From the IMG/VR virus record IMGVR_UViG_3300042368_000879, positions 1 to 48,845 of that record: 48,845 nt of DNA; one strand, given 5' to 3'. Below are positions 5,747 through 45,542 of the stretch, in pieces. Under the pieces are notes generated by a model, which was given only the letters and a program-made list of their open reading frames with translations, had not been told where the DNA came from and made no database searches. Position 1 is the first letter of the stretch, and each line of letters opens with the position of its first letter. The DNA comes from a virus. The position numbers were made by a program, and so were the translations under genes.

Positions 5747-5749
5747 GGG

Positions 5750-27500: not shown

Positions 27501-29657
27501 CTCGGTGCGGCGGCGCTCCAGGTCGGGGTCCACGGCAGCAGGGGCTGCCTCTGCCGCAGCAGGCTCCTGCGTCGTGGCGACAGCGCTCTCTGGCCGGTTC
27601 TCCCAGATGATCCCCTCGGTCGCGGCAGCCTCGGACAGCGACTTGCCCTCGTCGATGGCGACGCCCTGAAGGAACAGCACCTCGACCTCTGCGGCGTCTG
27701 CGGCGTCCTGGCGGCCCTGCTCGGTGTCGGGGAACTTCCCGCTGGCGACGTACTTCTCGGCCAGCTGCGCGACGGCTTGGTCGCGCGCGGTGTCGTTCTG
27801 GTCCTGGGTCAGCTGCGACGCCGGGATGCTCATCACGGTGGCGTCTGCGGGGGTCATGACCGTCGCGATGCCGCCGACCTGCTCTCCAGCCGGCGGCGTC
27901 TGCTGCGGCAGCGCGGCTTCTGTCTCCAGGAACTCTTGCAGCGCCTTCTCGCTCTGCTGCCGCTCGGCCTTGGTCATGCCGTCGGCGAAGAACTTCAGCA
28001 AGCCCTGCGTCTCCAACCCCAGGCCGATCCGCTTGCCGGCGAAGTGCTCGACGAAGTCGGCGACCGAGATCTTGACGTCGACCGTGTCGTCGACGGCTTC
28101 GTCGACTTGCCGCGCCACATCGGGCAGCAACTCGCGCAGCGTCCGAGTCGCACGACCATCGCCGACGGCTCCTTCCTCGCGAGCCACGCGCGACGGCGAC
28201 GCGCCTGTCTGCGCAGCGACGTCGGCACGCTCGAAAGCATCGGCCTGCTCCAGGGCGTCGCGCATGTCGCGGACGTTGACGTACACGTTCTCGATGCCGT
28301 CACGCTTCAGGATCTTGCCAAGGCTCTCGGCGGCGGCGGCGGGCGCGTTCGCCATCACCTCTGTGCTGCGCATCTCGTTGAGGGCCGTCGTCCACTTCTT
28401 GGTCTGGTGCTCCGAAGCTCGGGCAAATGCCCTGTCGCGACGCAGCCGCCACGAGGCACCAGCGATCGACAGCGGGGCGATGCCGACGGCTGCCGCACCC
28501 ATCTCGGCCCATGCCTCCGACCACATCTGCTCGCCCATCGCCGACCAGTCGAGCCGGTTGCCGTAGGCTGGGTCGGAGTTGGCGCGCGCGACGTGATCGC
28601 CGGCAACCATGACCGCCTTCTGCAAGCCCTCGGTCAGGGTCTCCATGCCCCACGACGTCAGCATGTTCTTGCGCCACGCTGCCCATGCCTGCTTCTCGGT
28701 GACGTTCTCAAACGTCTTGGCCGCACCTCGCAGAGCACCGCGAACAAGCTGGCCGCGCCACGGCTGCGACACCGCCTTGAAGCCGACGGCGTCGATAGCG
28801 CCAGCAGCGACCGAGGCAATCGCCAGGGCCGGCGCTGCGCTGCTCAGGTCGATGGGTTCCTGCCCGGCGCTTACGCGATCTGCGTTCTCCAGGGACAACT
28901 CTGCCATCGCGGAACCGAACTCAAAGCTCGACGCGAACGCGCCGCCGGCAAGCGGGGCCGTGATGAACGCAAGGGGGCCAGATACCGCAGCAGTGCCAAG
29001 GGACACAGCAGCCGTTTCTGCCACGAACATCGACGTCTGGATCACCGTCTGCCCAGCCCACGAGAACCAGCCGTCGTTCTCGTCCGACAGCAGGTTCTGC
29101 ATGCGGCTCAGGTACTTCAGCCGCTCGATGGTCGCCGGGTCGCCACCGTTGGCGAACGCTTCCATGCCCAGCGTGCTCGTCTCCATCTGCGCCAGCTGGC
29201 CCTGCACCTGCCGGCCAAACCAGCCGAGACCGCTGATCTCCGCGCGCGCCAGATTGTCGCCTTCCTGGCCGAGGATCTTCGACCACTGCGGGTCGGTCAT
29301 CAGGCTGTACGCCAACGGAGCCGTCTGGCGGATCTCCTCCAGCCTCTTCCGCTGGTAGTTCGCCATGTCGGCCATGACCTCGGGGCTGCGGTCCGCAACC
29401 ATCGGATCGATGCCGCGATCCTTCGCGAACTGCTGCGCCTGCTGGTACAGGGCCACGTCCTGCTTCAGGCTCTGCTGCCACAGCGTGAACACGTCGGCCT
29501 CCTGCTGCGGAGGCTCGTTGTGCGGCGCGAGAACCATGCGCGGCGCGACGTCTTGCAGCGGAGGCGGCGCAGAGGCTCGCATCTGCTCGGCCTGCTGCGA
29601 CAAGCCCTGCTGCGCCACTTCTCGCTGCGGATCCTGGAACGGAGTCAGGTCGGTCAT
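18549..29657 (-). CDS. Giant polyvalent virion (ejection) protein
   Basis: A 3702-residue protein in the position of the T7 gp16-like ejected protein, after gp14- and gp15-like genes. Domains read from sequence: hydrophobic N-terminal segments (about residues 205-265); an LPD/DUF7178-like region at about 900-1400 with AAGILAVLSPQKNWFENVSM and ARLGLHGGYAIFLDAYRR; a region at about 1705-1880 with YLLMRLFLTDDGEAGFAL; an ADP-ribosyltransferase-like domain from about 1965 (RAFHGTSVDV, NLGAHFSVEP) to about 2190 (YIVFRPEQIKLAD); and a zinc-peptidase motif HEQAH at 2277-2281. The last third is helical with a hydrophobic segment near 3540. Such proteins are thought to be injected to form a conduit and act on host targets. 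No transglycosylase domain was recognised. Confidence 0.85.
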   Translation of the reverse strand: MTDLTPFQDPQREVAQQGLSQQAEQMRASAPPPLQDVAPRMVLAPHNEPPQQEADVFTLWQQSLKQDVALYQQAQQFAKDRGIDPMVADRSPEVMADMANYQRKRLEEIRQTAPLAYSLMTDPQWSKILGQEGDNLARAEISGLGWFGRQVQGQLAQMETSTLGMEAFANGGDPATIERLKYLSRMQNLLSDENDGWFSWAGQTVIQTSMFVAETAAVSLGTAAVSGPLAFITAPLAGGAFASSFEFGSAMAELSLENADRVSAGQEPIDLSSAAPALAIASVAAGAIDAVGFKAVSQPWRGQLVRGALRGAAKTFENVTEKQAWAAWRKNMLTSWGMETLTEGLQKAVMVAGDHVARANSDPAYGNRLDWSAMGEQMWSEAWAEMGAAAVGIAPLSIAGASWRLRRDRAFARASEHQTKKWTTALNEMRSTEVMANAPAAAAESLGKILKRDGIENVYVNVRDMRDALEQADAFERADVAAQTGASPSRVAREEGAVGDGRATRTLRELLPDVARQVDEAVDDTVDVKISVADFVEHFAGKRIGLGLETQGLLKFFADGMTKAERQQSEKALQEFLETEAALPQQTPPAGEQVGGIATVMTPADATVMSIPASQLTQDQNDTARDQAVAQLAEKYVASGKFPDTEQGRQDAADAAEVEVLFLQGVAIDEGKSLSEAAATEGIIWENRPESAVATTQEPAAAEAAPAAVDPDLERRRTEALDLLTDPAATIADAERQQLESFVYGAEQPAGFGGMLSRRQQAAALRQIGVLADRFGPDAAKWAAGSITDERLAATIAKQEGAGNQKKRAAELLKLLKSAKQVAGWKPGRLASMGMPSPRQEPTPLPTPEGTSAPMEASTRVPTAKGAEMQALDEKLLVDWSVMKTNPDLVSSNLDVLKDSDLGVAYRWDETQTPEQQIEGFIDFARDNLVWLHERMNPEWRARAKLWYVGARRIADWMAKRYNISPMQAAGILAVLSPQKNWFENVSMGDRIADILFSKRDATWTPGMEALWQRLMASKDANVATLKLKLASLEKPTRPSKPVVGETDEQWDRRRERFARRRDKLMQQYEEELAVYEERLEELEDALGEARETQDKEGTEALLQEIAAHKITKPERPVRPRRIKSETAEEFAERKEEYPKLMEEYESAKAKLEKQIPAAEAKRAELYAFNAGPSMQLARSGTLKDLLDAGDLRMAGYWVRLFDEAHNSRSFAIITPEGGMAGPSMTGKPDARKEAKLRWGSYNTILKAISIFEDGRFENIHVQVGGAHKVRNFYNNIYSPWFLPAATIDTHAIAAALMMPLSASDDAVAYGLGGKVKDARLGLHGGYAIFLDAYRRAAAQTGVQVREEQSITWEAIRGLFEAAKKSGMKKPVNDLWAKYRAGEATLEETREAIWKLAEGITRPEWVDVSTEIEPASSYAGESRAAMDAVVNERADAKPDPNVTLMLPVQPATSDAALAGRYAKLTDEQKMQVSSKVIGDFLPKVLAEFETAGTVGTTVAMQNGEASLAITVTIPNTANTRQIARAIGNVFGLDNVTAVSASKFVDATATTTAALRIAAGATPDQIRGLQAKLAQAGFHDTFTHNSFMLAVLPSDASLETLGAAIGGDPLVESQQFFSAWFSHDRKEALEVGAGRGIGSDRRRRLDRWREQASDTVLGEVNERAKYNTGTIVRQWRESGAGGDAGEWSKRNSSARDAAPVRLGELLGVELKGTEWIIPPAFMQIMRDAGMRPRRIVELRKGEKGSAEAFRQAVLASKKANTQYGAAVHAYPAEDYLLMRLFLTDDGEAGFALKKDGDIVSCFGSPSKRGDMTYMLQLAIDQGGWKADSFDTALPSIYAAHGLYPVARMPWDDKQKPEDWDYEKFKEWQDGRPDVLWYAFNPNWRGKYKRDQGPMVEWPKPLELQEANKPTAGKRLSSKGVGVLREQYMDAVRAADIGTPEKFANSTPEQRAPVQQLRDQSAAASGFVRAFHGTSVDVPVTAHAAAKPFTVFKTVYETGNLGAHFSVEPAVAGKFASSNSGELDKKKLFSVYLKIRNPLRLQDVGIWTSGRVIPQLTNMGWFGGDQTAAYAALDQLEQIVKSLLLTGTIGKTYKAHDAFRYSIGEKPVDPDYERVARSWLTSPTIKPSDVGQAELEEIGLQLLIQMHGYDSVVYLNRREIAIGDPGSKQRRSLSAQVAAQAYSDNAQWSRVHQVSTDEEFLRRIPEARDSYIVFRPEQIKLADAVTFTEDGSVIPLDERDDQTNTSILYSEGSQEEANIDINTRRARLLHTGNLKAHVHEQAHNMMRYLFRSASRPWPNPRHLRDVQVLLGWFGVADLATWNAMTMQEQERHWEAFAYSYEKYLFEGVAPTPGLRGLFDRLSRWIRRYYREVIENINVAYRAATGHDLPMLTDEVRAVMGRMLAAEQSVDSAITANALEPLFQTREQFPGSDDQWQELQELMEAQRLESVSQLTQQSVRQLQLSQPAIARASADRERAARAQRERLRAEVTAEVMEQPVYRLISYFKTGILVGQDGQTARDDSKAAHGHKLDRDAIARMPDLAAFSRIERDPSGNLISVTVNLDKYMRRGGADPEQVATAFGFVSNDPDGTMRADVAGMMSTLAAAPTPQQAIDARLDERMQQEFGNLVDPKARDQAVLEAVHGELRARLVAAEAMWLNTNLTTVAIAALPGHRRKMQQARDAVASIEPQLEAAREERSMLLDEQTPLDRVDLQRLQWLDLQIGALQAQRSRFAGAAESTVPQLMLAQAAAGQARKNLSTRVIGEINPRDFLAQERRSATEAQQALRKDITSMPQGGRDVRYRAASQAKLRQLLYQQMTAEALTIRREAEQFRTFVSRLFNIGQTRARKLEMLYVHAAQALLTEAGYAPASFTPERAEQIWSTVQQLDAALWAQIEPTVTGLRQLIASLPRQTITGRGNDQPPWRRMTVEQWRTLRDVIEALHDAAVERGEVVFDQRRQSFRDARDLLLQAISDRGIRGPVPGRDRKRTDTEEKLSWFGSFVAKWKRVEHTMLRFDGGTPGIWTKLIWTPINDAFVRYEARRQSVLSTYATILRSAPLDADVPAAQRRIEFRSRDGRLIYTFADMRELLGALLHIGNQSNKRKLLLGGTGYGKAFGFLERDAATNEMVLNSQEWDAFVEALNESGRLQATHWKFLQAVWDLNESLLPSIQGAHKRITGSIMRTVGRTPIVNRYGTFSGGYVPAKIDSTKSPIGARVESIAELQADMRQQLPMADDGFTRERNESVHEPLSFDLRMIESHIDQVVRYTEVAPVVNDVNRLLTDYTVMQEMHLMDPTLYQEVLRPFLSRALNNTTSQPHNSKAFNWLFSGLRRNTTLGKMFLNVPNALQNISGLPIALLRIPMRHWAHAIWSFVSGGWGTMAQNCQRSEFMRQHLGNQMSTLINEMRTYVEQPTAYGRARQWFGQHGLFLQGFTQNMVDTIVWNAAFDEQLATADASWTEDEVRAHAVSYADSVVRTSQLVLRAIDVSAGEAGTPFERLLTQFMSYFNSVAQANATAWEAALRSVNWNVPRAVPHLLWAYLVGLALPAVVGEALVRLLGRGFEEEDDDGRMVTAWFDMVVGSQVRFAAGAIPFGQQLASATVNGWDDVKYNDRMSAGPAIESLMRAIGSLDDVLAVTLGGGKVSPTMPRDFMTLLTMISGGLPFEAAGRPLGFAARVSAGSVEPETALDWARGLISGQARAGITNR
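24554..24793 (-). other. Coding-like alternative frame inside the giant gene
   Basis: A second minus-strand frame, ATG 24793 to TAG 24554 (79 codons), reads MIEKKPLKWEQVEASAVIGD..., then GESLVQEVMRVNGVSETAAR. In its first 29 and last 25 codons third positions are mostly G or C, while the main frame there is Arg-rich with many A/T third positions; in the middle the main frame looks coding instead. It may be an embedded gene, a pair of compensating frameshifts or sequence errors. Confidence 0.35.
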
Positions 29658-31899: not shown

Positions 31900-33108
31900 T
31901 TACTCCGAAAGACCCTGCGAGGAGGCCCAGGCCGCCCAGCGGCGGTCGGCAGCCCTCTGGCTCAGGTACTGTCCGGCACCCGTCAGGAGCGACGGCATGG
32001 CCCCGGCCACGGGGTTCAGGGCGCGTGCCTGCATGCGCAGGCTGCCGGCGCTGGTCTCTGCCAGCAGTCCCTCGTTCGCCGCGTTCACGCCCTGCATGCG
32101 AGCGGCGTTCGCGGCACGGACGGCATTGGCGTCGATCGTGAAGCGGTCGATCTCCTTCATCAGTTCGATGCTCGCCATGGTCTCGGCACCGCTTCCGACG
32201 TCGGCGCGAATGCCGCGAGCGCCCATCGTGGCGCGAGCCGCCTCCCGCACTTGGCCGGCGCGCATCGTCGCCTCCATCGCCTGCTGCCTGCCGGCGGCGA
32301 TGATGTCCGCCGCCTGCCTCTCAGCCGCGCGCGCGTTGATCTGGCTCATCTTGCCCTGGAACTCCAGGGACATGGCTTGCTGCTTCAGCTGCGTCTGCTG
32401 GCTCTTCAGAGCGTAGAACTGTCCGATGACCTGCTGCGTCGTGCCAAGGACGGCAAGGGCAGCGCCCCACGTCATCCCGCTGTCAGGTGGGGCTTCCTTC
32501 TTCGGTTGCGGCGTTACAGCCGAGTCGTTGGGAAACGTGTAACCCTCGCGCCAAGGGCCGGGCTTGCTGCCCTCCAGCATCACTCCTGGCATCTCCAGGC
32601 CGGCGGGGTCTTGCAGCGCCACAGGGGCTTCCATCGGAGACTGCTCGGCGACGACCTCTGGAGCGGCCACAGGAGGCTCAGAGCCAGCCGGAAGGACACC
32701 AGCGTCCTGCACGCTAACCATCTCGACCAGCGCAGGATCTTGCGCCTTCAGCATGCCGGCGGCGTCTACCTGCTTCATGTCGGAGAACGGGCGCGGCGGC
32801 GGCTCGTAGGCGTACCGCTTGGCGGCCTCGACGCGCAGCGCGCCCTGCCGGCGAGCGCGCTCCACGCTCGCGTCTGCCAAGTCCTGCCGGAACATCTGCA
32901 ACTGCCGATCGGCTGGCCCCACCTTGGCTGCCGGCGGCAGCCCGTAACCGCTGCGCATCACCTCGGGGGCAACGTAGTCGCGAACGTGACGAAGAGCCTG
33001 CCGCTCTGCCGTCAACGGGTCGATGCCTCGGCCGATCAGCTGCTGCTTCATCAGCCCGGCCTCCCGGCGAAGCCGCAACTCGATCATCGCTTGCGTGAGT
33101 GGGTCCAT
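31900..33108 (-). CDS. Internal virion protein, T7 gp14-like
   Basis: A 402-residue protein. The N-terminal half is Pro/Ala-rich; the C-terminal half is a helical segment (ALKSQQTQLKQQAMSLEFQGKM, RAAERQAADIIAAGRQQAMEATMRAGQVREAARATMGARGIRADVGSGAE) that carries the ARGIRADVGSG motif common in phage internal core proteins. In T7, gp14 forms the outer-membrane part of the ejection channel. The ATG overlaps the tubular B stop (TGATG). Assignment rests on helix pattern and gene order. Confidence 0.7.
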   Translation of the reverse strand: MDPLTQAMIELRLRREAGLMKQQLIGRGIDPLTAERQALRHVRDYVAPEVMRSGYGLPPAAKVGPADRQLQMFRQDLADASVERARRQGALRVEAAKRYAYEPPPRPFSDMKQVDAAGMLKAQDPALVEMVSVQDAGVLPAGSEPPVAAPEVVAEQSPMEAPVALQDPAGLEMPGVMLEGSKPGPWREGYTFPNDSAVTPQPKKEAPPDSGMTWGAALAVLGTTQQVIGQFYALKSQQTQLKQQAMSLEFQGKMSQINARAAERQAADIIAAGRQQAMEATMRAGQVREAARATMGARGIRADVGSGAETMASIELMKEIDRFTIDANAVRAANAARMQGVNAANEGLLAETSAGSLRMQARALNPVAGAMPSLLTGAGQYLSQRAADRRWAAWASSQGLSE

Positions 33109-36100
33109 CAGCCTCCGATCGCGACCTCGTAGGTCATGCCAAGGATCGTCATGGGGTATGGCGTCCTGTGGCGGATCGTCACTTGACCACTATTCCGCCA
33201 GGATCCCAGAAGCGTCACGTCGATCTCCTGCATGTCTGTGCTCTGCGCAGATGCCGGCGGATTGCCAGGGACCAGCAGAGAGCCGGTCGGCCCGATCGAC
33301 ACCTTGCTCGCGGACGACACCTTGAGCCATGCCTTGTTGATGTTCTTGGCCCGGCCCTGGCCCATGCCGTCGATCTGCATCGCAGCGGGGACAGTCACGA
33401 TCTCGCTCGTGTACTTGATGCCGACGACTGCCGTGGCCGCGATCGGCCGCACGGTGCCGTCCAGAGAGATCTGCCCGTTCTCGACGGTCAGGTTCTCCAG
33501 CAGGATGCCGTCTGCGACGACGTCGACCGTCAGACCCTCCAGGTGCTCCAGTTGCGTGATCGTGCTGAAGCCGATGTACACGTTGCCGGCCGCCGGCAGC
33601 TGCGTGTAGGCAGCGCCCCACGTCCCCACCGGGGACAACGTGAACGAGTTGGCGTTGTTGTAGGTCGCGATGCCGATCAGGATCGGACCAGCCGGCGACC
33701 CGACCTGCACGACCACAGTCGTTGGCGAGACGTAGCCGTGGTTGGCGTAGGCAATCACCAGCGACTCCGGCGACCCCTTGGCGTAGGTGCCAAGTTTCTG
33801 CTGGAGCAGCGCGCCGTCGCAGTAGATCGATTCGGGTGCGACATCCTGGTTGAGCGGGGCCATGCGCTCGACCGTTCGGATGGTCGACGCGCCAACCGTC
33901 CTGCGCACAACGGCCCACAGCCGGTCCTGCTGCCCGTCTGGGATCACCGCCACCGACTCAACCACACCGCCGACGTCGTGCTGGTGCCAACCTCCGACCT
34001 GCTCCTCGGGAACGTAGGTCAGGCCGAGCAGCTTGCCGCTCGTGCTCACGAACCAGAGCACGGGGACAGGCGACTTCTGATAGGCGGCGTCGACGATGCT
34101 GTAGTCGTCGAACAGGTGCGGCGCGCGCAAGCTCAGGTCGCCCGTCACGAATCCCTGCGACTGGAAGTTGAACCCCAACTCGCGAACGTGCCCACCGCGC
34201 GCAGCGCAGAAGATCGCGCTGTTGTTGACGATGATCGGCTGGACGGCGTTCGCGCCGTTGTAGCTCTGCGGGCGCACGCTGATCGTGCTCGGGGTCAGAG
34301 CCTCGCTGTTGATCGGGCTGACGCGCCACTCGCTGGCGTTGGTCAGCAGCAGCAACTCGCCAAGCGGGACGATGTGTCGGATCCTGTTGGCCTCGCGGGC
34401 GGCGACCTCGACCTCGATCCGGTCGGAGTCGTTGCTCGGGAGCCGGTACGAGAACTCCGTCTCGGTGAACGGCTTCGACAGGTACAGCTTGTTCGGCTCG
34501 TCGAGCGCGCCGGCAAAGCACTTGCGCTGGTCGAAGTACGCAACGGCACCGGGGTACAGCCCCGCCGCGTTGAACACCGACTCGACGTATGGCGGCGTCT
34601 TGCTGAAGTCGGGTGTGATGTTGTCGTCGACGAAGCTCGTCGTCTCGCTGTTGCCGATGAAGCCGAACAGCCCGCTGACCTCCTTGTAGACGTTGTACCG
34701 AGTCGCGCCAGGAACAGCCGACCACGTCAGCGTGTTCTTGCTGCCGATCGCCAGGAGGTTGTTGGTCGCAGTGACAGATGCAGACGCTGGGCCTTCTGCG
34801 TCGTCGATCTCTGCCGTCACTCGGTACGTCGCGAGCGCGTCCTGCACGCTGGTCACGAACTGCAACAGCCCGCACCTGCCGAGCGCGTACTCCGTCTCGC
34901 GAGGCTCGTAGTGCCCAGATGCCTCCGACGTCGTGGACACGCTGCGGCCGTTCACGAGCACGGCAAATGCTACGAAGATTGGAGCAACCAAGCCGCCAGT
35001 AAGTTGACTACCATCGTCCAGGAACAAGCGGAACCGCTTCGTGGTTGCGAAGCTCGGGTCGAGATCCAAGTACGCAATCGCGCCGAGCGGTATTGCGGCA
35101 GTTGAGTTGGAGTCGCAGATGCGAACGCCGGTTCCGTTCCTCCACCACGAAGCCGACTCGTACTCCAGGGTATTCAGCTGGAACGGGTAGGTGTTCGTGC
35201 CCGTCGTCTTGGTCGCGGTGATTCGCTGGTAAACGTAGCCCTCGTCCTCCAGGCGTTGCAGGTAGGCGACGTCCTCGGACCACAGGCCGCCGAATGCGTT
35301 GCCGCCGCTCGATCCGTTCAAGATGGTGTTGGTGTTCACCATCTGGCTCGTCTGCGACGGCTCGGATGCGACCACGAAGAACTTGTCGTGCAGCAGCGGG
35401 AAGTGGTCGCAGCGGCAGTACACCAAGTCCCCCTTGCTAAACTTGTGCTGCGACGGGCCGACGACGTTGATCCAGTGCCGGTCCATGCCGCTCACGGGCG
35501 CGTCGCTGTTGGCCCAGTCCCATCGCCATGCCATGCCGTAGGTCGGCGTTGCCGTCACTCCTGTGACCTGCGGCGTCGTGTTGAACACGGAAGCCGTCAG
35601 AGACCACGCAGTCGAGCCAAAGCGTGAAAGCTCGCGCACCGGGTGATTCGGGTGCGCAAAGGAGACGACGTCGAAGCTCTGCGTGTACGTCAGGTCGAAG
35701 ATCTCCGACTCCAGGTAGCTGTGCTTCAACTCCAGGGCCGTCGAGAACTGCTGGAACCACAGAGCGTCGAGGCTGGTCGAGGTGATCAACCCCAGGCCGG
35801 CGCTGCTGTAGATCGGAACCGTCGCAAGGTAGTTGGCACCGCTGTACGTCACGACGGAGCCGACGTCGTAGAACTTGTCGACGGTGTTCGTCCCCGTGCC
35901 GGCGGTCGTGAAGGCGATGCGCGAACCAGTCGGCGACGCCTTGAGGAAGAACCCAGTGCCAGCAGTTGGGATGTCGTAGTCGACGTAGTACAGCGTGTTC
36001 GGCGACAGCTGCGGCGGAAGCGCCCCGCCCGTGTTGCGGAAGCACACCACTTCGTTCTGCGCAAACGGAGGAGTGGCCGGCGGCGTCCCTGTCCACGACG

Positions 36101-36515
36101 CCGACGAGACGCGCAGCTGGCTGCTGACACCGCTGAACGTCACCGTCGTGCCAGGGATGTACGTCGTCGGCGTCGCGTGCTGAAGCAAGCCGCTCGGCAA
36201 GTGGAACCGCATCGTGCCGAAGCGCGCGGTCTGGTTCACTCCATCCCACGCGCGAAGCTCGATGACCAAAGCCTGATCGACCGAGAACTGGAACGGGATC
36301 AGGCGGCTCTTGGTCGTGCGTGGATCGCCAGCACCTCGGGATGTGTTCGCGCGGAACTCAAACCCAGGACGCTTGACGAGTACGCCCTGCGGTCGCAGCA
36401 CCCAGTTGTTGATCCTGGCCGCGCCGTTCTGGTACTTGACGTCGTCGATCCTGCCGAACATCTCCGGCGAGATCTCGCCGCCCGAAAAGCCCTTTTGGTA
36501 GATGCGCGTGTTCAT
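33108..36515 (-). CDS. Tail tubular protein B (nozzle), T7 gp12-like
   Basis: A 1135-residue protein. The N-terminus MNTRIYQKGFSGGEISPEMFGRID, followed by INNWVLRPQGVLVKRPGFEF, is the hallmark of the T7 gp12-like stem/nozzle family that forms the distal tail tube. Most of the length is beta-rich, as expected for a large propeller-like nozzle. It is larger than T7 gp12 (about 794 residues), like many members in podoviruses of this type. The ATG overlaps the upstream stop (ATGA). It follows the tubular A gene, the standard order. Confidence 0.88.
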   Translation of the reverse strand: MNTRIYQKGFSGGEISPEMFGRIDDVKYQNGAARINNWVLRPQGVLVKRPGFEFRANTSRGAGDPRTTKSRLIPFQFSVDQALVIELRAWDGVNQTARFGTMRFHLPSGLLQHATPTTYIPGTTVTFSGVSSQLRVSSASWTGTPPATPPFAQNEVVCFRNTGGALPPQLSPNTLYYVDYDIPTAGTGFFLKASPTGSRIAFTTAGTGTNTVDKFYDVGSVVTYSGANYLATVPIYSSAGLGLITSTSLDALWFQQFSTALELKHSYLESEIFDLTYTQSFDVVSFAHPNHPVRELSRFGSTAWSLTASVFNTTPQVTGVTATPTYGMAWRWDWANSDAPVSGMDRHWINVVGPSQHKFSKGDLVYCRCDHFPLLHDKFFVVASEPSQTSQMVNTNTILNGSSGGNAFGGLWSEDVAYLQRLEDEGYVYQRITATKTTGTNTYPFQLNTLEYESASWWRNGTGVRICDSNSTAAIPLGAIAYLDLDPSFATTKRFRLFLDDGSQLTGGLVAPIFVAFAVLVNGRSVSTTSEASGHYEPRETEYALGRCGLLQFVTSVQDALATYRVTAEIDDAEGPASASVTATNNLLAIGSKNTLTWSAVPGATRYNVYKEVSGLFGFIGNSETTSFVDDNITPDFSKTPPYVESVFNAAGLYPGAVAYFDQRKCFAGALDEPNKLYLSKPFTETEFSYRLPSNDSDRIEVEVAAREANRIRHIVPLGELLLLTNASEWRVSPINSEALTPSTISVRPQSYNGANAVQPIIVNNSAIFCAARGGHVRELGFNFQSQGFVTGDLSLRAPHLFDDYSIVDAAYQKSPVPVLWFVSTSGKLLGLTYVPEEQVGGWHQHDVGGVVESVAVIPDGQQDRLWAVVRRTVGASTIRTVERMAPLNQDVAPESIYCDGALLQQKLGTYAKGSPESLVIAYANHGYVSPTTVVVQVGSPAGPILIGIATYNNANSFTLSPVGTWGAAYTQLPAAGNVYIGFSTITQLEHLEGLTVDVVADGILLENLTVENGQISLDGTVRPIAATAVVGIKYTSEIVTVPAAMQIDGMGQGRAKNINKAWLKVSSASKVSIGPTGSLLVPGNPPASAQSTDMQEIDVTLLGSWRNSGQVTIRHRTPYPMTILGMTYEVAIGG

Positions 36516-38866
36516 CGACCGCTGATCCACGGCGCGGTGTGGCTCGTGTCCGTCCGACGCTGATTCGCGTCGCTGGCAGCCGCCTTGCCGATGTAGAACT
36601 GCACCATCTGCAAACAGCGCTTGGCCTCGGCAGCGCCGACGTCGCCCTTCAGGATCGGGCCGGCGAGCTTGCTCGCCAACATCCACGACAGCGACGTGAT
36701 GAACAGCGGCGGGTAGTAGCCCGGCGTGTACACGAACTTGGTGTACCGAAGCTCGGCGTCCTCGACGTCGGTGTACAGCACCATCGAGCCTGCTGCGTTC
36801 TGCTCGATCGTGTACTCGTATGGCTCGCGCGTCGTCTGATCGACGTAGCGGTCTTTCATGCCTTCAGGAATGACCTGCAAGGTCTTCAGCACGGACGGCG
36901 GGTAGACGTAGCTGTAGCCCCAGCCATCGACTTCGTTCGACGGCGTCGTCGTCAGAGCCACGCGCGCGGTCGCGAACGACCACGCATGCATCTCCAGCAG
37001 TTCGTCGACCGCTCGGTTGTAGAACTGGACGCACAGCAGCGACTGCGCAGATCCGTCGGGAGGGGAGATGCTCTGCACAGCCGCCGACTCGCCGATGTGC
37101 GCCAGTGCAAGGTTGCAGATGTCCAGTGCGGTGACCACGCAGCGTCCCTCGACGAAGATGTTGTACGGTGCCCAGTGCTGTAGGAAGAACGACTCGTAGT
37201 TGCGGGGAGTGACAAGCGTCCCTGCGATGACGACGTCGTTGAACGTGATGTCGTGCGGCGTGTTGAGCCGGTCGCGACCGATGATGCGCGACATCCGAGC
37301 AGGGACATGCGTCGTCGTCAGCCCATCAAACAAGAAGGAACTGATCGATCCGGCCTTGTCGGCAGAGATGAGCGTCCCGCCGAGAGACTGCGACAGGAAC
37401 GGGTAGTACGCATTCTCCAGCGTCAGAAGAGCCTGCGGGATTGGTCCGTCCACAAGGCAGTCCCTGACGACGACGTTGTGCCTTCCCCATCCAGCAGGAT
37501 CATTGTCCGATCCATCAACCCATGTCTTCAGAATGCTGCTGGTGAGCGAAGCGGGTGCGCTGTACCCAACAAACGGTTGGTAGGCTCCAGCCTGCGCGCC
37601 AGTGTACAGATCCCCGCCCCAATCTCCCTCCAGGCCGAAGTGCGTGAACGTACAGCCTTCGACCAGCGTGGACGGCGTGTACGTTGTCGCCGCAGATGAC
37701 GGCAGGTTGAAGTAGCTAAACACGATGTTGGCGGCTTGCGTGTTGATGACGTAGGTGTCCGTCACCGTCGTCACTCCATCGTTACCTGCCAACACGAGTC
37801 CGTCGTCGCCTGCCATGACGAAGCAGCGGTCGATCGTCCTCGTCGGAATGGACGCATTGTTGACGGACAACCCCATGCCGTCGCAGTTGTAGAACCACGG
37901 GGTGACAACCTTCACCAACGAGCAGCTGCTGATCCCTTCGCCGAACGTGTAGAACGGGCCGCCGACGATTGTGACGTCCTGCATCGACATGGATGGGAAC
38001 GACGAGTCGCCACCATCGCCTCCGAAGCGGCCAACAACCATGCTGAACGTCAGCTGCTCCTCAAACGTCAACGGCTGTCCAGGATTGATGTGGACGTTGC
38101 CTGCTCCTTGGACCTTGGATGCCCAGTCGGCGTCGCTGCACCACTCGCCACTCAGCACGCCAGGGCCGCGAATCACCACGTCGTTCGACTGCCGCAAGTC
38201 CAGCGAGCCGACGACCCACGCTCCACGCTCCAGCCAGATCTCGGTGTACGGGCCGACGCGCCACAGCGTCGACGCGAACTCTCGCGTGGCGACAGTCGGA
38301 AGCGCAGTCGTGACCGACCCGGCCGTCGTCGGAAGTGTGTGGATGCCGGCGGGGAACTTCAGGATCGCAGGGCTGCCTACGGTTCCCGAAGGTGCCCCCG
38401 ACGCCATGGTGCCGGCGTTGAACGTCACGGCACCGACGGGCGTCGTGGCGGCGATCGGGTCGCTCCACACCATGACCGGATACCGCGTGTCGCCGTTCGC
38501 GACGATGTACAGCTTCGCCCCTGCGGGGACCGTGAGCGTCAGCTGGTTGCCGGACACGATCGGGCTGACCGACGCCGTCGACGGTCTGATCGTGTAGCTC
38601 GTGATCGAAGCGCTGTACTGCAAGCGCACCGTCCTGGACGCCGAGTCACTGCCGAAGCTCGTCCACGACATCTCGGCCTGCTGACCATTCGCCCACTGCG
38701 TCGTGGTCATCCCGCTCGCTCGCGTGAACCCGTAGACGTGGTTCGCCTGCAAGACGTTCGCGTCGTCTGAGACGGAGCAGAGCCACCGAGTGCTGCCTCG
38801 ATCGTTGGCGTACAGGGGGCCGCCGTTCGGCGTTCCAGTGGGACCGAGATCTCGCTGTAGTGGCAT
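36512..38866 (-). CDS. Fusion of beta-helix glycosidase-like tailspike with tail tubular protein A
   Basis: A 784-residue protein with two parts. Residues 1 to about 575 resemble GH49/GH28-type beta-helix enzymes: an N-terminal beta-sandwich (EMSWTSFG, TIRPSTASV), the entry segment IWLERGAWVVGSLDL with GPGVLSGEW, and acidic residues D329 in YNCDGMGL and D354-D355 in MAGDDGLVLAG that fit a polysaccharide-cleaving centre. From about 577 the protein is a T7 gp11-like adaptor (ALDICNLALAHIGE, LLCVQFYNRAVDELLEMHAWSFATARVAL) of about 208 residues, the usual full length. A GTG at codon 577 has GAGG 8 bases upstream. ATG 38866 is chosen because an upstream GTG lies within a hairpin. Confidence 0.8.
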   Translation of the reverse strand: MPLQRDLGPTGTPNGGPLYANDRGSTRWLCSVSDDANVLQANHVYGFTRASGMTTTQWANGQQAEMSWTSFGSDSASRTVRLQYSASITSYTIRPSTASVSPIVSGNQLTLTVPAGAKLYIVANGDTRYPVMVWSDPIAATTPVGAVTFNAGTMASGAPSGTVGSPAILKFPAGIHTLPTTAGSVTTALPTVATREFASTLWRVGPYTEIWLERGAWVVGSLDLRQSNDVVIRGPGVLSGEWCSDADWASKVQGAGNVHINPGQPLTFEEQLTFSMVVGRFGGDGGDSSFPSMSMQDVTIVGGPFYTFGEGISSCSLVKVVTPWFYNCDGMGLSVNNASIPTRTIDRCFVMAGDDGLVLAGNDGVTTVTDTYVINTQAANIVFSYFNLPSSAATTYTPSTLVEGCTFTHFGLEGDWGGDLYTGAQAGAYQPFVGYSAPASLTSSILKTWVDGSDNDPAGWGRHNVVVRDCLVDGPIPQALLTLENAYYPFLSQSLGGTLISADKAGSISSFLFDGLTTTHVPARMSRIIGRDRLNTPHDITFNDVVIAGTLVTPRNYESFFLQHWAPYNIFVEGRCVVTALDICNLALAHIGESAAVQSISPPDGSAQSLLCVQFYNRAVDELLEMHAWSFATARVALTTTPSNEVDGWGYSYVYPPSVLKTLQVIPEGMKDRYVDQTTREPYEYTIEQNAAGSMVLYTDVEDAELRYTKFVYTPGYYPPLFITSLSWMLASKLAGPILKGDVGAAEAKRCLQMVQFYIGKAAASDANQRRTDTSHTAPWISGR

Positions 38867-38880
38867 GGGATCGCCGAAAC

Positions 38881-38908
38881 GCAGGCAGAGCCTGACCACT
38901 CTGCCTGC
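38881..38908 (-). promoter_or_regulatory. Perfect 10-bp hairpin before the tailspike-adaptor gene
   Basis: GCAGGCAGAG-N8-CTCTGCCTGC in the 106-base gap between the cement gene and the fusion gene, ending 14 bases before the ATG. No T-run follows on the minus strand, so it is not a standard terminator; it could trim readthrough from the strong capsid transcript or control translation. Confidence 0.6.
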
Positions 38909-38972: not shown

Positions 38973-39500
38973 TCAGACCGGGTTCGGCAGCGTCGCGATC
39001 GCGTCGGCGTGGTAGGTCACGCCGTCCTGCGCGTCGATCACGATCTGCGCCGAAAGGTTGCCGGCGTTGCTGCCCGTGTGCGTGCCCGTCGCGACGTACT
39101 TCAGGTAGACGTAGCGCTTGTAGCGAGCGCCGGGGGTCTCCAGGTTGGACGCTCGCGGAGCCGGCAGCGGCAAGATCAGCTGCACGGGGAGGCCAGCAGC
39201 GGTGGCCGCGACGAGCGCAATCGCTGAGGTCGAGGCGAGGACGTACTCGCCAGAACCGACCGTGCCGGCGACGCCGCCGCCAGCGCCAGCCGTCGCCGCG
39301 ACGCTCGCGGTGTCCGCTGTGAACACCTGCACGGAGACGTCGTTGCCGCCCGCGAACGCTCCGGTGCGGGTGATGACGATCTTGAGTGCCGTGCCCTCGG
39401 CGAGATCGCGGTCCACTCCGAAGTCGAGTGACGCGGAGATGTAGGTGCCGTTGGAGGTGATCGCCGGGTTGGTGATGGTGAGGAAGTTGTCGACGTACAT
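38973..39500 (-). CDS. Capsid cement protein, Bbp16-like
   Basis: A 175-residue protein matching the Bbp16 family of BPP-1, whose jelly-roll dimers clamp neighbouring capsomers. Visible family features are the N-terminus MYVDNFLTIT, the SLDFGVDRDLAEGTALKIVITRTGAF block and QLILPLPAP, with a beta-rich C-terminus (YKRYVYLKYVATGTHTGSNAGNLSAQIVID). AAGGAG precedes the ATG, giving strong translation, as needed for a protein present in hundreds of copies. It lies directly after the major capsid gene as in BPP-1. Confidence 0.88.
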   Translation of the reverse strand: MYVDNFLTITNPAITSNGTYISASLDFGVDRDLAEGTALKIVITRTGAFAGGNDVSVQVFTADTASVAATAGAGGGVAGTVGSGEYVLASTSAIALVAATAAGLPVQLILPLPAPRASNLETPGARYKRYVYLKYVATGTHTGSNAGNLSAQIVIDAQDGVTYHADAIATLPNPV

Positions 39501-39517: not shown

Positions 39518-40519
39518 TCAGGCCGGGACCAGGGTCTCGGTGTTGTCGATGGCGTCGCAGCAACGGATCGGCACGCCCAGGAACGTCAGCCACGACTGCG
39601 GCTGCCCGAACTGCGTGATCGACTGCTGGATGTTGAGCACGCCGTTGCTCCGATCCATCGCCTGAAGGGCGAGGCCGGTGTGCGCGGCGCGGTTCATGTA
39701 GAACACGGGGCGACCCATGTTCTGGTTCGGCAGCTTGTACAGCGCCCGCAGCATCAGCTTGATCAGGAGCGTGGTCGCGTTGGCCCCCTGCGAACCGTTC
39801 TGACCACCGAGGTCGGCGACCGGCAGGTTGCAGATGCGCACGACGTAGCGCCAGTCCTTGTTGACCAGCCCGCCCTTCCACTGGTAGCGCGTGGAGAGCG
39901 CCTGCATGCGGTTGACACCGTCGTAGACGGTCTGCTCGCCGAGATCCTCGTGGACGAGGCCGGCCTTGCTGCCCTTCGGGAACGGGCAGTACAACGTGTT
40001 CTCGCCCCAGCAGGCGAGCCACACCGACGTGCCGGCCGAAGTCGTCGCGCGGATGACGTTCTCGCCCACCGTGCCCGACGCCGTGGAGTAGCGAGCCGTG
40101 AGGCCCAGGAACTCCTGCGGAGCCGTCTGCGGGTTGCCGTAGAACAGCGTCCGCGCCCAGCGCTGGTTCATCGCCTCCAGGAACGCCACGTCCTCGGACA
40201 GCCGGAACTGCGAGGTGTTGCCGTTCAGCATCGCGAGATCCTTGTCGATCTCCGAGCGCGCCTCCAGGATGGCGCACGCCTCGTCGACCTGCGTGGTCGT
40301 CGACTTGCTGTTCGGGATGCCCTGGTTCAGGGCGCGGTAGTACACGTCCGGCAGGCCCGTGCGGATGACGACGCGCTCGCCCGTCGGGAGGTTGCCCTCC
40401 TTCCAAACGGCGTCTTGCAGGATCTCGTTGCGCTGGCTCAGAAGCTCCGCGATCACCGGCGTGTTGCCGTTCGGATCGGTTCGCTTCGCCCAGTCGAGCA
40501 GGGTCAGTCGAAAGCTCAT
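39518..40519 (-). CDS. Major capsid protein, epsilon15 Gp7 / BPP-1 Bbp17 type
   Basis: A 333-residue HK97-fold capsid protein. Family-like segments are RTDPNGNTPVIAELLSQRNEIL, WKEGNLPTGERVVIRTGLP, SRSEIDKDLAMLNGNTSQFR-like RSEIDKDLAMLNGN, DVAFLEAMNQRWARTLFYGN, FLGLTARYS, CPFPKGSKAGLVHEDLGEQT and GVPIRCCDAI near the end. The length matches this family exactly (about 330 residues). It assembles the T=7 head on the scaffold encoded upstream and is stabilised by the cement protein encoded downstream. Confidence 0.95.
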   Translation of the reverse strand: MSFRLTLLDWAKRTDPNGNTPVIAELLSQRNEILQDAVWKEGNLPTGERVVIRTGLPDVYYRALNQGIPNSKSTTTQVDEACAILEARSEIDKDLAMLNGNTSQFRLSEDVAFLEAMNQRWARTLFYGNPQTAPQEFLGLTARYSTASGTVGENVIRATTSAGTSVWLACWGENTLYCPFPKGSKAGLVHEDLGEQTVYDGVNRMQALSTRYQWKGGLVNKDWRYVVRICNLPVADLGGQNGSQGANATTLLIKLMLRALYKLPNQNMGRPVFYMNRAAHTGLALQAMDRSNGVLNIQQSITQFGQPQSWLTFLGVPIRCCDAIDNTETLVPA

Positions 40520-41496: not shown

Positions 41497-41658
41497 CTAA
41501 CCAGCGCGCAAGGTCTCAAGGTCGGCAGCGATCTGCGCCATCTCGGCGTCGATCTGCTCGATGCGGCCGACGTCACCGAGGCGCAGTGCGCATGTGCGCT
41601 GCGTGCCAAGGTTGACCAGCGCGGCCTCGTACAACTCGATGCGTTGGGCGGTGTCCAT
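41497..41658 (-). CDS. Hypothetical 53-residue helical protein
   Basis: A small protein with two predicted helices (MDTAQRIELYEAALVNLGTQRT and RIEQIDAEMAQIAADLETLRAG), like a helical hairpin. The ATG overlaps the stop of the kelch-like gene (TGATG). The function is unknown; small helical-hairpin proteins between tail and head modules may be chaperones, but this is inference. Confidence 0.6.
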   Translation of the reverse strand: MDTAQRIELYEAALVNLGTQRTCALRLGDVGRIEQIDAEMAQIAADLETLRAG

Positions 41659-43088
41659 CAGATCACCATTTGGCGCAGGTGGATTGCCGCCGTGTTGTGC
41701 ACCATGTGGACGTAATAGATCTCCGTCGCGCCGTCCTTGTAGATCACGTCGAACGCTGTGTCGCCGACGATCGCCGCGCCCTGCGGGTACAGCATCGTTG
41801 ACCACGGGAACATCTCAGACCGGGCGAAGTCGAACGCGAACCAGCGGCCCGTCACCTCCTTCTGGAGGTAAAGGATGCCGTCGATCAGCGCGTACTTGCT
41901 GCCCGTCGTGAACGTCTCCGCGTTCGGCGAGTAGGTGATCGTCGCCCAGGTGTTCGCCGCGATGTCGTAGCGGTGCAGGGCCGCCGTGCCCGCGCCCTGG
42001 AACGAGTAGATGTAACGCCCGTTCAGGATTGCCGACTCGTTCGTCCAATCCGTCTCCGACGCGCTGTGTACCCAGTGCGCGCTCATGCCCGCGCCAGGAG
42101 CCGCCGCACGCGCCGCACCGGGCGACAACGTGCTCCAGGTGTTCGCCGTGATGTCGTAGCGGTACAGCGTGACCGCGTTGTTGCCGAGGTAGTACAGGAA
42201 GTTGTCGTTGCCCTCGATCGCGTAGACGCTGGTCGCGTCCGGCGTCGCGGTCCACGTCGCAACGGTGAGCGTGTCGGCGGTGTTCGCCGTGATCGTGCGG
42301 ATCTGGCCCGCGCCGGTGCCGCCGGTGATTCGTACCTGCGAGTTGATCCACTGCGACGCCGTCCAGGTCTTGCCCGTCTGCACGAGCGTCGTGGCCGTCG
42401 CGCTCGTCGCGGTGCCGGTGGCGAACTGCTTGAAATCGCCGTCGATGATCGACGGCGTGGCCACCAGCTTGCCGTCGGTGCCGAGCGACGCCGCGAGTCC
42501 CGCCTGCGCAAGCGTCGTGTAGGTGTTCGTCGCGTAGTCGTAGACGCGGAAGCTGCCGGAGGCGAGCGTGCCACCAGTCAGCAGATACCAGCGCGGCGTC
42601 AACAGGCGGTACACCGTCGAGGCCGAGAACGCGCTCGCCTGCGTCGCTACCGTGATCACCGCCGACGCGCCCACCGTGTTGCGCACGATGTCGAGCACCG
42701 CACCGTTGTTCGGACCCGACAAGATGTGGATCTTGTAGCCGCGAAGATCACGCGCCAGCGTCTGGTTGGTCGTGATCGTGCTCGTCGTGCCCGCCGTCGC
42801 GGTGAGCGACGCCGCGCCAACCGTCGAACCCGTAGACCATGCGCTAGCCACCGCCGCCGCGCCCGCTGCCAGCGCGGGAGTCAGTGCCGGGGACGCAAGC
42901 AGCACCCATCCGTCCTCGCTCGGGTTGTAGATGTACGCCTCCGTCGCGCTGCGGAGGAAGAACTGCTGCTGCCGGAAGTGCCGCGACGAGGCGATGCACG
43001 ATGCGGCGGCGGTGGCGACTGGAGCGGGGGCGCAGAACTCCCACCGCTTCATGTCGAGGATCTTGCGATTGCCGTTCGTTGTTGCCAT
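41658..43088 (-). CDS. Kelch-like beta-propeller tail protein
   Basis: A 476-residue protein rich in Thr, Ala, Ser and aromatic residues. Repeats of the form ...RYDITANTWSTL..., ...RYDIAANTWATI... and ...VYDYATNTYTTL... are kelch-like blades, so a beta-propeller is likely. Interspersed segments (QVRITGGTGAGQIRTITANTADTL) resemble beta-modules of phage head-tail proteins. It probably sits on the tail or fibre base. It lies between the 150-residue protein and a small helical protein. Confidence 0.7.
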   Translation of the reverse strand: MATTNGNRKILDMKRWEFCAPAPVATAAASCIASSRHFRQQQFFLRSATEAYIYNPSEDGWVLLASPALTPALAAGAAAVASAWSTGSTVGAASLTATAGTTSTITTNQTLARDLRGYKIHILSGPNNGAVLDIVRNTVGASAVITVATQASAFSASTVYRLLTPRWYLLTGGTLASGSFRVYDYATNTYTTLAQAGLAASLGTDGKLVATPSIIDGDFKQFATGTATSATATTLVQTGKTWTASQWINSQVRITGGTGAGQIRTITANTADTLTVATWTATPDATSVYAIEGNDNFLYYLGNNAVTLYRYDITANTWSTLSPGAARAAAPGAGMSAHWVHSASETDWTNESAILNGRYIYSFQGAGTAALHRYDIAANTWATITYSPNAETFTTGSKYALIDGILYLQKEVTGRWFAFDFARSEMFPWSTMLYPQGAAIVGDTAFDVIYKDGATEIYYVHMVHNTAAIHLRQMVI

Positions 43089-43091
43089 GTG

Positions 43092-43544
43092 TCAGGTCAC
43101 CGAGATGTTGCGGCGCAGATTGTCGGACTGCATGTGCAGCAGCGCCGGAACGTAGTCGTTTGCGGCGAAGCCGCCGATCTGCGTCTGGTTCGTCAGTGTG
43201 CTGACGGTCGTCACCGTCGCGAGCGTCTGTGATCCTGCGATGCTGGCGGTGACGGCGAGGTTGGCCGCCGTCGGCTGCCTCGCCTCCATGATCGGCCAGC
43301 CCTGCGCAGACGGCAGCGACTGGCCGATGCTCCGCGTCAGCGAGTGGACCGCCATGCGCAGGGCCTCGATGGATTCGACCAGCTCGCCGTACGCGGCGAT
43401 CGGCAGCGGGTTCGTCGCGCTGGTGTCCGTCGCGGTGCCGTCCGCACCATGCACGGGCTTCACGCGCTGGAAGAGAACGCCGCCGATCTCGTCGGCTGCG
43501 ACCGTTGCGCCGCTTCCCGGCGTGTATCCTACGTTGTCGGCCAT
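43092..43544 (-). CDS. Structural protein of 150-residue type, copy 2 (complete)
   Basis: The complete paralogue of the gene at 1-345. The N-terminal two thirds is almost identical (MADNVGYTPGSGATVAADEIGG..., SLPSAQGWPIMEARQPTAANLAV). The C-terminal third, lost in copy 1 by the window edge, reads GGFAANDYVPALLHMQSDNLRRNISVT. It is probably a minor virion component. It follows fibre copy 2 by two bases and precedes the kelch-like gene. Confidence 0.8.
   Translation of the reverse strand: MADNVGYTPGSGATVAADEIGGVLFQRVKPVHGADGTATDTSATNPLPIAAYGELVESIEALRMAVHSLTRSIGQSLPSAQGWPIMEARQPTAANLAVTASIAGSQTLATVTTVSTLTNQTQIGGFAANDYVPALLHMQSDNLRRNISVT
43198..43544. repeat. Direct repeat of window bases 1-345 (diverged duplicate)
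   Basis: The DNA of the two 150-residue-type genes aligns over about 340 bases with scattered changes, mostly at third codon positions, plus a short indel near the left end. Both lie on the same strand. Confidence 0.85.
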
Positions 43545-43546
43545 GG

Positions 43547-44647
43547 TCAGACGTACTGGAGGTAGATGTCGCCGTCAGCGCCGCCGGTCGGCGACGCGGT
43601 GCCTTCGGAGATGTTGCGGTTGACGGCGGACTTGAAGCCGAGGTTGGCGAAGTTGGATGCGGTGGCCGTGCCTTCGATCAAGGCGAACGCGTCGACCGTC
43701 GACTCGATCTCTTTGTACGCGACATCCGTGTCGTCGCCGATCAGCACGTAGTTCTTGCTCGGCGCCTGGATCTTCGCGTAGGTGACAGCGTTGTCGGCAA
43801 TCGCCGGCGTGCTTACGCCATTGGTAGCGATCGACAACGTCGTTCCGCCTGCCGTCTTCGTCACGTCGCCCGTGAAGGCCGTCGTCTGGATGCCACCGCT
43901 GCCGGTGAACTCGATGCCGCCGCCGACCGTCAGAGCTTCGGGCGATCCAGTGCCTGCCGTGTCGCGTCCGATCAACCTGTCGGTCGCTAGGTTGGCCATC
44001 TTTGCCAACGTGACCGCGCCCGTGGCAATCGTGGTCGTGTTGCTGCCGGCGGATGCCTCGACATCGCCAAGCAACTGGCTGCGCCTGATGCCGCTACCGT
44101 GGAACTCGACACCATTGCCGACGCCGACTTCCTGCGGCGACCCGGTGCTACCAGCGTGCCGACCAACCAGATGCTGGCTGGTGATGTCCTGCATCTTGGC
44201 GAACGTGACAGCCGCATGGTCGATGGTCCACGTTGCGCCAGACGCCGAGACGGTGATGTCGCCCTTGTCGCCGTCCGTCACGCCGCCACCAGTCGCCGCC
44301 AACGTGGTGCCGGTCATCGAAAGGCCAGACCCGAGCGTGATCTCTTGCACATCGCCCGATCCGCTGTCGCCACGGCCAAGCAGCCGCGACGCCGCCGAGA
44401 CGTTCTGGATCTTCGCGTACGTCACCGCGTCGTTGTCGATCGTCCACGTTGCGCCGCCGGCGCTGACCGTGATGTCGCCCTTGTCGCCCGTCGTGAGGCC
44501 CGTACCAGCCGCCGCCACGACCGCCCAATACGTCGTCCACGAGCCGCCGACGCCCGGCTCGTCGCCCGCGCTGCTCGTGTGGTCCAGGATGCACACGTAG
44601 CTGCTGCCACCGTTCCCGACGACCTGCCCGCGATAGTAGACGGTCAA
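43547..44647 (-). CDS. Tail fibre / fibre-tip repeat protein, copy 2
   Basis: A 366-residue fibre protein with the same plan as the gene at 5750-6520 but with more repeats: YYRGQVVGNGGSSYVCILDHTS, two GDKGDITVSAxGATWTIDxxAVTxAKxQ units, RLLGRGDSGSGDVQEITLG, SQHLVGRHAGSTG, GVEFHGSGIRRSQLLGDVEA and a closing GGADGDIYLQYV. The start is probably TTG 44647, overlapping the preceding stop as TTGA, in the same place where copy 1 uses GTGA. Confidence 0.8.
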   Translation of the reverse strand: MTVYYRGQVVGNGGSSYVCILDHTSSAGDEPGVGGSWTTYWAVVAAAGTGLTTGDKGDITVSAGGATWTIDNDAVTYAKIQNVSAASRLLGRGDSGSGDVQEITLGSGLSMTGTTLAATGGGVTDGDKGDITVSASGATWTIDHAAVTFAKMQDITSQHLVGRHAGSTGSPQEVGVGNGVEFHGSGIRRSQLLGDVEASAGSNTTTIATGAVTLAKMANLATDRLIGRDTAGTGSPEALTVGGGIEFTGSGGIQTTAFTGDVTKTAGGTTLSIATNGVSTPAIADNAVTYAKIQAPSKNYVLIGDDTDVAYKEIESTVDAFALIEGTATASNFANLGFKSAVNRNISEGTASPTGGADGDIYLQYV

Positions 44648-45036
44648 GACCACGCTCCTTGGTACTGCGAAAGGAAGATGCCGTCGGGGATGGTGCCACC
44701 CCACGACCCGGCCCACTGGAGATTGCCACCTGCGCCTCCGCCTCCGCCGCCGCTCGTGGCCCACAGCCGCATGCCGCCATCGGCGTCGCGGGTTACTTCG
44801 ACTTCCGATGCGCCCGGCGCCTGCGTGCCGTGATTTCCTACGACATTCAAATGGTCCTTCTGCAGAACGACCTTCTCCAGGTCCTCCTCGAGCAACGTCG
44901 CCCGCTGCGCGACGAAGCGCCGATGGCCGTCGCGCACTTCCTGCGCGCGCCGTCGGCGGAACGCATCGACGGTGTCCTCGTGCCGCACCCGCAGTGCGAC
45001 AATCGCGGCAACCGTGCGTGCGCTCAGGCTCGTCAT
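44644..45036 (-). CDS. Fibre-associated protein, copy 2
   Basis: A 130-residue protein with a helical N-terminal two thirds (DTVDAFRRRRAQEVRDGHRRFVAQRATLLEEDLEKVVLQKD) and a C-terminus with GGGGGGAGGNLQWAGSWGGTIPDGIF ending QYQGAWS, shared with the 110-residue protein at 6517-6849. The ATG overlaps the upstream stop (TGATG). It probably links or folds the fibre encoded next. Confidence 0.7.
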   Translation of the reverse strand: MTSLSARTVAAIVALRVRHEDTVDAFRRRRAQEVRDGHRRFVAQRATLLEEDLEKVVLQKDHLNVVGNHGTQAPGASEVEVTRDADGGMRLWATSGGGGGGAGGNLQWAGSWGGTIPDGIFLSQYQGAWS

Positions 45037-45542
45037 CAGGCTTCCTGAAACGTCACCGTCGCGTGCCAGTTGCTCGTGCCCGTCGGGGCCGTCGGCACGC
45101 GCATGACGAACGCCTCGGCGCTGCCGGCGGCGAACACCAGCTGCTCATCGACCGACGGCAGCCAGACGAAGCCGTTGATGTTGTTGAAGGCTTCGTCGAT
45201 GACCGGCGTGAAGCCGCCAGCGCCTTCGGTCGTGCTCGCCGTGCCAGCCGTGCCAGCCGCCGCCGACGTGCCGCCGGTGATGGCCGAAGCCGCGTCGCTC
45301 TCGCTGTGCTTGGCCAGCAGCGGCTGCGTCGAGCCGCCGACGTTGACCGAGGTGAGGCCGGTCGCGTAGGCGCTCGCCTTGCGGCCGAGCTGCACGCGCA
45401 CCTGCTCGCTCGTCGTCGTGCCGCGCTGCGTCAGCGTCGCGCGCACGACCGACATGGCCTGCGAGGTGTTGGGGCGGATGCAGATGAGCGTCGTCGCGGC
45501 CGAGATGGTCACGGCTCCGGTGCTGATGGTGTAGGTGCGCAT
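45036..45542 (-). CDS. Beta-rich structural protein
   Basis: A 168-residue Thr/Ala/Ser-rich protein (YTISTGAVTISAATTLICIRPN, VVRATLTQRGTTTSEQVRVQLGRKASAY...) ending with a strand-rich domain (GFVWLPSVDEQLVFAAGSAEAFVMRVPT, WHATVTFQEA). Proteins like this are frequent between tail-tip and fibre genes and are probably tail accessory or decoration proteins. It overlaps both neighbours (TAATG, TGATG). No enzymatic motif. Confidence 0.65.
   Translation of the reverse strand: MRTYTISTGAVTISAATTLICIRPNTSQAMSVVRATLTQRGTTTSEQVRVQLGRKASAYATGLTSVNVGGSTQPLLAKHSESDAASAITGGTSAAAGTAGTASTTEGAGGFTPVIDEAFNNINGFVWLPSVDEQLVFAAGSAEAFVMRVPTAPTGTSNWHATVTFQEA

Follow-up and report, generated by a model that had tools for sequence, protein, structure and literature searches.

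In phage T7 the tail adaptor gp11 is a monomer until it assembles, exclusively on the portal, into a 12-fold ring that sits on the portal clip (PMC6702177). KP32 TTPA (gp31), the Carin-1 and LME-1 adaptors and BPP-1 bbp14 belong to the same family by sequence or fold, and the TTPA proteins of KP32 and of phiYeO3-12 have been reported to be active on saccharides (PMC5440376, PMC7060351). Carbohydrate-binding, beta-helix or esterase-type modules also occur at the neck of the lactococcal 936 and P335 phages, in the neck passage structure (PMC6669499), which undergoes domain exchange, including that of a pectin-lyase-like fold (PMC10684548). Among short-tailed phages, the tailspikes of P22, HK620 and Sf6 and the Klebsiella depolymerase tailspikes bring a beta-helix to bear on surface polysaccharide, and phage depolymerases and esterases are sought in spikes or fibres at the tail tip or baseplate. 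In the literature that we searched, with many subscription papers outside its reach, no enzyme domain fused to an adaptor is described. Here we describe a virus gene that joins an enzyme-like domain to a complete adaptor of the T7 gp11 type, and compare it with related fusions.

A gene that joins an enzyme-like domain to a tail adaptor

The window (the whole stretch of DNA analysed, 48,845 nucleotides, IMG/VR record IMGVR_UViG_3300042368_000879) contains the following features, all on the minus strand:

36512..38866, minus strand, fused gene, GH49-like N-terminal part plus tail adaptor, 784 aa
37139..38866, minus strand, N-terminal enzyme-like region, residues 1-576 (Foldseek match to 3wwg; homologue in locus L032 32% identical)
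38462..38638, minus strand, Ig-like beta-sandwich, approximately residues 77-135 (strands in the model; weak Foldseek matches to Ig domains)
37211..38365, minus strand, beta-helix of the predicted model, approximately residues 168-552, with conserved GDD (D354, D355)
36515..37138, minus strand, complete T7 gp11/bbp14-type tail adaptor, 208 aa (phrog_394, fold matches, single copy)
37136..37138, minus strand, in-frame GTG, codon 577, aligned to the starts of free adaptors; possible internal start or relic
37147..37150, minus strand, GAGG, Shine-Dalgarno-like, 8 nt upstream of GTG577
33108..36515, minus strand, tail nozzle, T7 gp12/bbp13-type (phrog_376, E=3e-156)
38973..39500, minus strand, bbp16-like small gene between the capsid and fused genes
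39518..40519, minus strand, major capsid protein (PF20911)

The reading frame runs uninterrupted from one of two possible starts, the ATG at 38866 (784 aa) or a GTG at 38899 (795 aa), to the TGA at 36514-36512; its 576-residue N-terminal region is followed by an adaptor that is complete at 208 residues. Along the strand the capsid gene is followed by the bbp16-like gene, the fused gene and then the nozzle gene, whose ATG overlaps the fused-gene stop in a 4-base ATGA, and T7 gp11/bbp14-type relatives have the same order of capsid, adaptor and nozzle.

A sequence-only reading of this DNA had proposed a genuine in-frame fusion, while noting that a missed stop codon or an indel could have created it. 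Comparison with relatives, namely the loci from an adaptor-profile search and five phage records, bears out the former and excludes the latter. The frame is also uninterrupted in contig L001, which has 100% DNA identity over 11.4 kb and is possibly from the same site as the window record, making it weak as independent evidence. Contig L002, from another metagenome, is 99.3% identical in DNA, and its 21 differences in the fused ORF include no indel and no stop; dN/dS is 0.21 in the N-terminal part, and the adaptor part has three synonymous differences and no replacement. The fused frame is under purifying selection and the fusion is genuine. That sequencing or assembly had deleted a stop between two genes could be suspected from the end of the window record (43192-48845), which looks chimeric and may be so, but the artefact is already refuted by the intact frames of L001 and L002 and by the same architecture in diverged loci, and its probability is negligible.

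Several features of the remaining record deserve mention in their own right. The nozzle protein has 1136 aa, compared with 681-775 in BPP-1 and DC33; it contains insertions (roughly residues 113-262 and 327-563), and residues 215-241 match CBM_5_12 below threshold. The 476-aa product of 41658-43088, upstream of the capsid genes, has kelch-type repeats and may be a component of the virion or bind the receptor. A giant ORF of 3702 aa (18549-29657; DUF7178), with a sub-threshold ADP-ribosyltransferase (ART-PolyVal) match, adjoins a lysozyme-like gene. Positions 5744-6615 and 43542-44742 are related (71-92% DNA identity), the second lying inside a gene with DUF5907 repeats. Positions 43192-43544 repeat 2-345 at 91%, and L002 runs on from there into the window start (portal side); 45542-48655 codes for a tail protein of the long-tailed-phage/GTA type (PF13550, Rcc01698_C) that is absent from the L001 and L002 records.

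The C-terminal part is a full-length adaptor

By sequence, the final 208 residues align with phrog_394 'tail protein' over nearly its whole length (E=1e-39, positions 3-188 of 190 in the profile) and with the adaptor 8ck1_E (E=6e-19). They share 39-47% identity with five phage adaptors that are each encoded by a gene of their own, those of BPP-1, Limnohabitans phage DC33, Caulobacter phage Jess A and two spring-water podophages. An AlphaFold model was built on a 51-row alignment (A4), a single-sequence model having been discarded (pLDDT 33), and was compared with the PDB by Foldseek. Its adaptor part, with pLDDT mostly 75-91, matched 8ck1_E (E=5e-11), T7 gp11 in 7box (E=9e-4) and also 9efk. 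Full-length homology, adaptor fold and a position between capsid and nozzle genes place this part among the T7 gp11-type adaptors, as had been recognised from the sequence alone, and the window record holds one copy.

The N-terminal part has a GH49-like predicted fold

Ahead of the confidently predicted adaptor, the alignment-based model (mean pLDDT 57.9; beta-helix mostly 50-80) contains a plausible Ig-like domain and beta-helix. The top non-adaptor match of this predicted structure is the GH49 isopullulanase 3wwg (E=2e-7, prob 1.00), and every isopullulanase chain (E from 2e-7 to 4e-5) ranked above GH28, while other beta-helix proteins in the PDB, tailspikes included, gave E values of about 0.01 or worse. 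Searches with the beta-helix sequence of Pfam, PHROGs, NCBIfam, the PDB, cultured phages and species genomes returned no informative match. The GH49-related Pfam profiles PF17433 and PF03718 did not match the N-terminal part, and the PF17433 search was uninformative, that profile having also matched nowhere in controls. The earlier suggestion of a GH49-like beta-helix is therefore good at the level of fold and has no counterpart in a sequence-family match. D329, D354 and D355, singled out in the same reading, are all present at those positions; the L032 homologue keeps both D354 and D355, and D329 is not conserved there, so that catalysis by the N-terminal part is uncertain and it may only bind rather than cut.

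GH49 enzymes are monomers whose beta-helix carries an Asp pair (GDD). This bears on a stoichiometry problem that had been raised for the fusion, that of placing trimeric beta-helix spikes on a 12-subunit ring. No tailspike domain of Pfam or PHROGs was found in the fused protein, the trimeric tailspikes are much weaker fold matches (HK620, E=0.02; Sf6, E=0.07) and, with the best match being to monomeric GH49 enzymes, the problem as posed largely disappears. It is weakened further by the esterase fusions described below, which have one adaptor gene per record and, in several cases, no start codon at the junction.

Enzyme-like domains recur on adaptors of several types

Among the profile-fetched loci and the five phages nearly all adaptors begin at their own start codon, but fused versions recur: long in-frame N-terminal extensions are present in L019, L030, L032 and L036 as well as in L001 and L002. 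In L032 and L093, which come from different records, a beta-helix 28-32% identical to that of the window is fused to a related adaptor. In L019, L030 and L036 the fused domain is a SASA (PF03629) carbohydrate esterase above the Pfam cut-off, with the motifs GQSN and D(T/G)AHYNG. A search with the esterase gave 45 loci, and SASA-type esterases lie in frame on the same adaptor family in at least 32 contigs, each contig being counted once and L019, L030 and L036 being added to the loci of the esterase search. The SASA domain was above the cut-off in all seven fusions scanned (L019, L030, L036, L102, L113, L123 and L132). A later adaptor search added L143, L144 and L154, whose N-terminal part is more distant and, in L143, weakly esterase-like by Pfam.

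The esterase is also found in frame on other connectors, in at least 10 further contigs. These include phrog_477 'head-tail adaptor Ad1'/DnaT_2 proteins (L104, L107-L111 and L140) and the gpW-like phrog_2545 adaptor (L100, L101 and L103), the fusion in L100 being followed by an apparent portal gene. At L112:6001-8388 the esterase is fused to a C-terminus that has no library match and by eye resembles a DUF1320/Mu-type connector. The fused contigs are metagenomic, several from related samples, so these counts are not numbers of independent events; they are lower bounds and yield no frequency of fusion. Judged from these sequences, an enzyme on an adaptor is a recurrent design.

No split version, with a beta-helix gene beside a free adaptor, was seen in the surveyed loci. 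No fused version was seen in cultured phages, for part of whose records the ORFs were read, and none was confirmed in two pattern scans of 84,980 species genomes. Phage zth2-2 was set aside as a candidate; its adaptor has an ORF of its own, even though the match began further upstream.

Uniformly fused or mixed adaptor rings

It had been suggested that the gene might supply both fused and unfused subunits through an internal start. The GTG at codon 577 (37138-37136) and the GAGG exactly 8 nt upstream of it (37150-37147) are confirmed, and free homologous adaptors start at this codon or one codon off. One gene could thus yield the fusion together with a free adaptor, and rings that mix the two would carry fewer than 12 enzyme domains. 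The Shine-Dalgarno energy of -6.4 kcal/mol fits such a start, and a start codon with a Shine-Dalgarno sequence also lies near the junction in L019 (ATG, -6.5) and L119/L142 (ATG, -8.8). However, 10.8% of random ATG or GTG codons in the window score as well, and GTG577 ranks fifth among 48 in-frame candidates in the fused gene. Many other esterase fusions have only weak start candidates near the junction, and in L030, L036, L114 and L116 any start codon is more than 12 codons away from the junction DICN motif, making re-initiation there unlikely and requiring either fused subunits or cleavage. Moreover, the position of GTG577 could equally well be the relic of a once separate adaptor gene. An internal start in the window is possible but unproven, and we regard the two-product reading as rather unlikely.

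Each of 18 fused records examined, several of them longer than 40 kb although the records may be incomplete, has a single adaptor match, so that no second gene in these records supplies a free adaptor. Together with the startless junctions, this argues that free adaptor is not generally needed, and rings composed wholly of fused subunits appear to work. Alternatively, the enzyme could be parted from the adaptor by cleavage after translation, leaving an ordinary adaptor in the virion and a soluble or loosely bound enzyme. The short low-confidence linker between the domains (residues ~566-577, pLDDT <50) would offer a site, but no conserved cleavage motif was seen among the fused junctions, and the retention of the fused layout in diverged lineages and on unrelated adaptors would be pointless if the protein were always cleaved; we consider this very improbable. 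On weighing these points we favour a uniform fusion over the dual product.

The fusion is old and its N-terminal part probably exchangeable

Among 90 adaptors placed in a tree, those that are fused all lie on one side of a branch with support of 90/90, which is good but not overwhelming, and the esterase (96/85) and beta-helix (93/82) subgroups are recovered within them; L002, whose adaptor is identical to that of the window, sits on a long branch. The simplest reading would be one old fusion lineage with later swaps of the N-terminal part, the alternative being two fusions in sister lineages. A recent capture of a spike, as had been proposed from the lower GC content of the beta-helix, is contradicted by the diverged beta-helix of L032 and L093 and by the single clade of fused adaptors, which indicate that the fusion is old. 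The dip in GC itself exists (59.5% at 37300-38050, against 62.8% in the whole N-terminal part, 63.6% in the adaptor and 66.7% in the window) and falls in the lowest 2.2% of 750-bp windows, but it is small, covers part of the domain and is a weak sign of recency.

Swapping is suggested more directly by L106:5974-8337 and L137:1-1527, whose identity falls from ~95% to ~79% at the boundary between esterase and adaptor, with dS of 0.24 in the esterase part and 1.03 in the adaptor. A near-identical esterase on a diverged adaptor points to a likely, and it seems recent, exchange of the N-terminal cassette at the junction. That the cassette has taken the place of the small bbp15 gene was rejected as a general rule; no bbp15-like gene was seen in the window, and L032, L106 and L120 keep one upstream.

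A model for neck display, and comparison with known systems

We think it probable that the gene encodes a tail adaptor with an N-terminal, monomeric GH49-like module, made up of an Ig-like domain and a beta-helix, that is displayed around the neck ring. The frame, the two predicted folds, the conservation, the single adaptor copy per record, the clade and one probable exchange were computed; from these we infer that the fused form assembles into rings, displays its N-terminal domain outwards and is enzymatically active. According to the model, the adaptor part would dock as a ring on the portal clip, with 12 copies if it follows T7 gp11. As many as 12 enzyme-like domains would then surround the neck of the short tail, where they could bind or cut the host's surface polysaccharide or exopolysaccharide as the phage approaches. 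T7 gp11 is a monomer until it meets the portal, and a subunit that bears a monomeric enzyme could assemble in the same way. By a rough geometry, a radius of 8-9 nm would give a circumference of 50-56 nm, which would accommodate twelve domains ~4 nm wide. The N-terminal part would be an exchangeable cassette, SASA-type carbohydrate esterases holding the same position in the related clade.

Whether head-tail adaptor rings are more generally a display platform for exchangeable N-terminal carbohydrate-active domains, one per subunit, is in our view evenly balanced. Such a platform would make use of gp11-type, DnaT_2/Ad1 and gpW-like adaptors, with GH49-like beta-helices and SASA esterases as cargo, in short-tailed and probably also long-tailed phages, and would place an enzyme at the neck that is distinct from spikes and fibres. 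If the proposed role is correct, receptor-processing enzymes have been missed in uncultured phages, where genes of this kind are labelled 'tail tubular protein' or hypothetical if they are labelled at all. It would also mean that a ring essential for assembly can bear a large domain at the N-terminus of its subunits, and that nature provides a circular scaffold able to hold as many as 12 enzymes. The site where cassette meets adaptor offers a testable recombination point.

Known adaptors of the T7 gp11/bbp14 type are stand-alone proteins of ~190-230 aa without an extra enzyme domain, and the saccharide activity in KP32 and phiYeO3-12 is attributed to the adaptor itself rather than to an added domain. 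With the GH49 isopullulanases and dextranases the predicted model shares an N-terminal Ig-like domain, a right-handed beta-helix and the GDD pair; it differs in lacking a sequence-family match, in the D329 that L032 does not conserve and in its fusion to a virion adaptor. Adaptor folds inside longer viral proteins are found in BFVD, in Vibrio phage VP2 Q6RCF4 (741 aa, Ig-like) and in the unnamed A0A516LMG1 and A0A516LTA4 (761 and 1084 aa), the latter two of which may belong to the esterase fusions. The 741-aa phrog_9239 matches adaptors of our set by its N-terminal end, and proteins of this type probably carry their extra domains after the adaptor, unlike the fused protein here. Tailspikes are separate trimers with an N-terminal virion-binding domain, whereas the anchor of the fused protein is C-terminal and is the adaptor itself. 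The lactococcal neck passage structure, non-essential in TP901-1, belongs to the collar and is a protein of its own, with a BppU-like base at its N-terminus, and the fused protein has no such separate base. Carbohydrate modules at the phage neck are thus already known as separate proteins; at the locus described here module and adaptor form a single protein.
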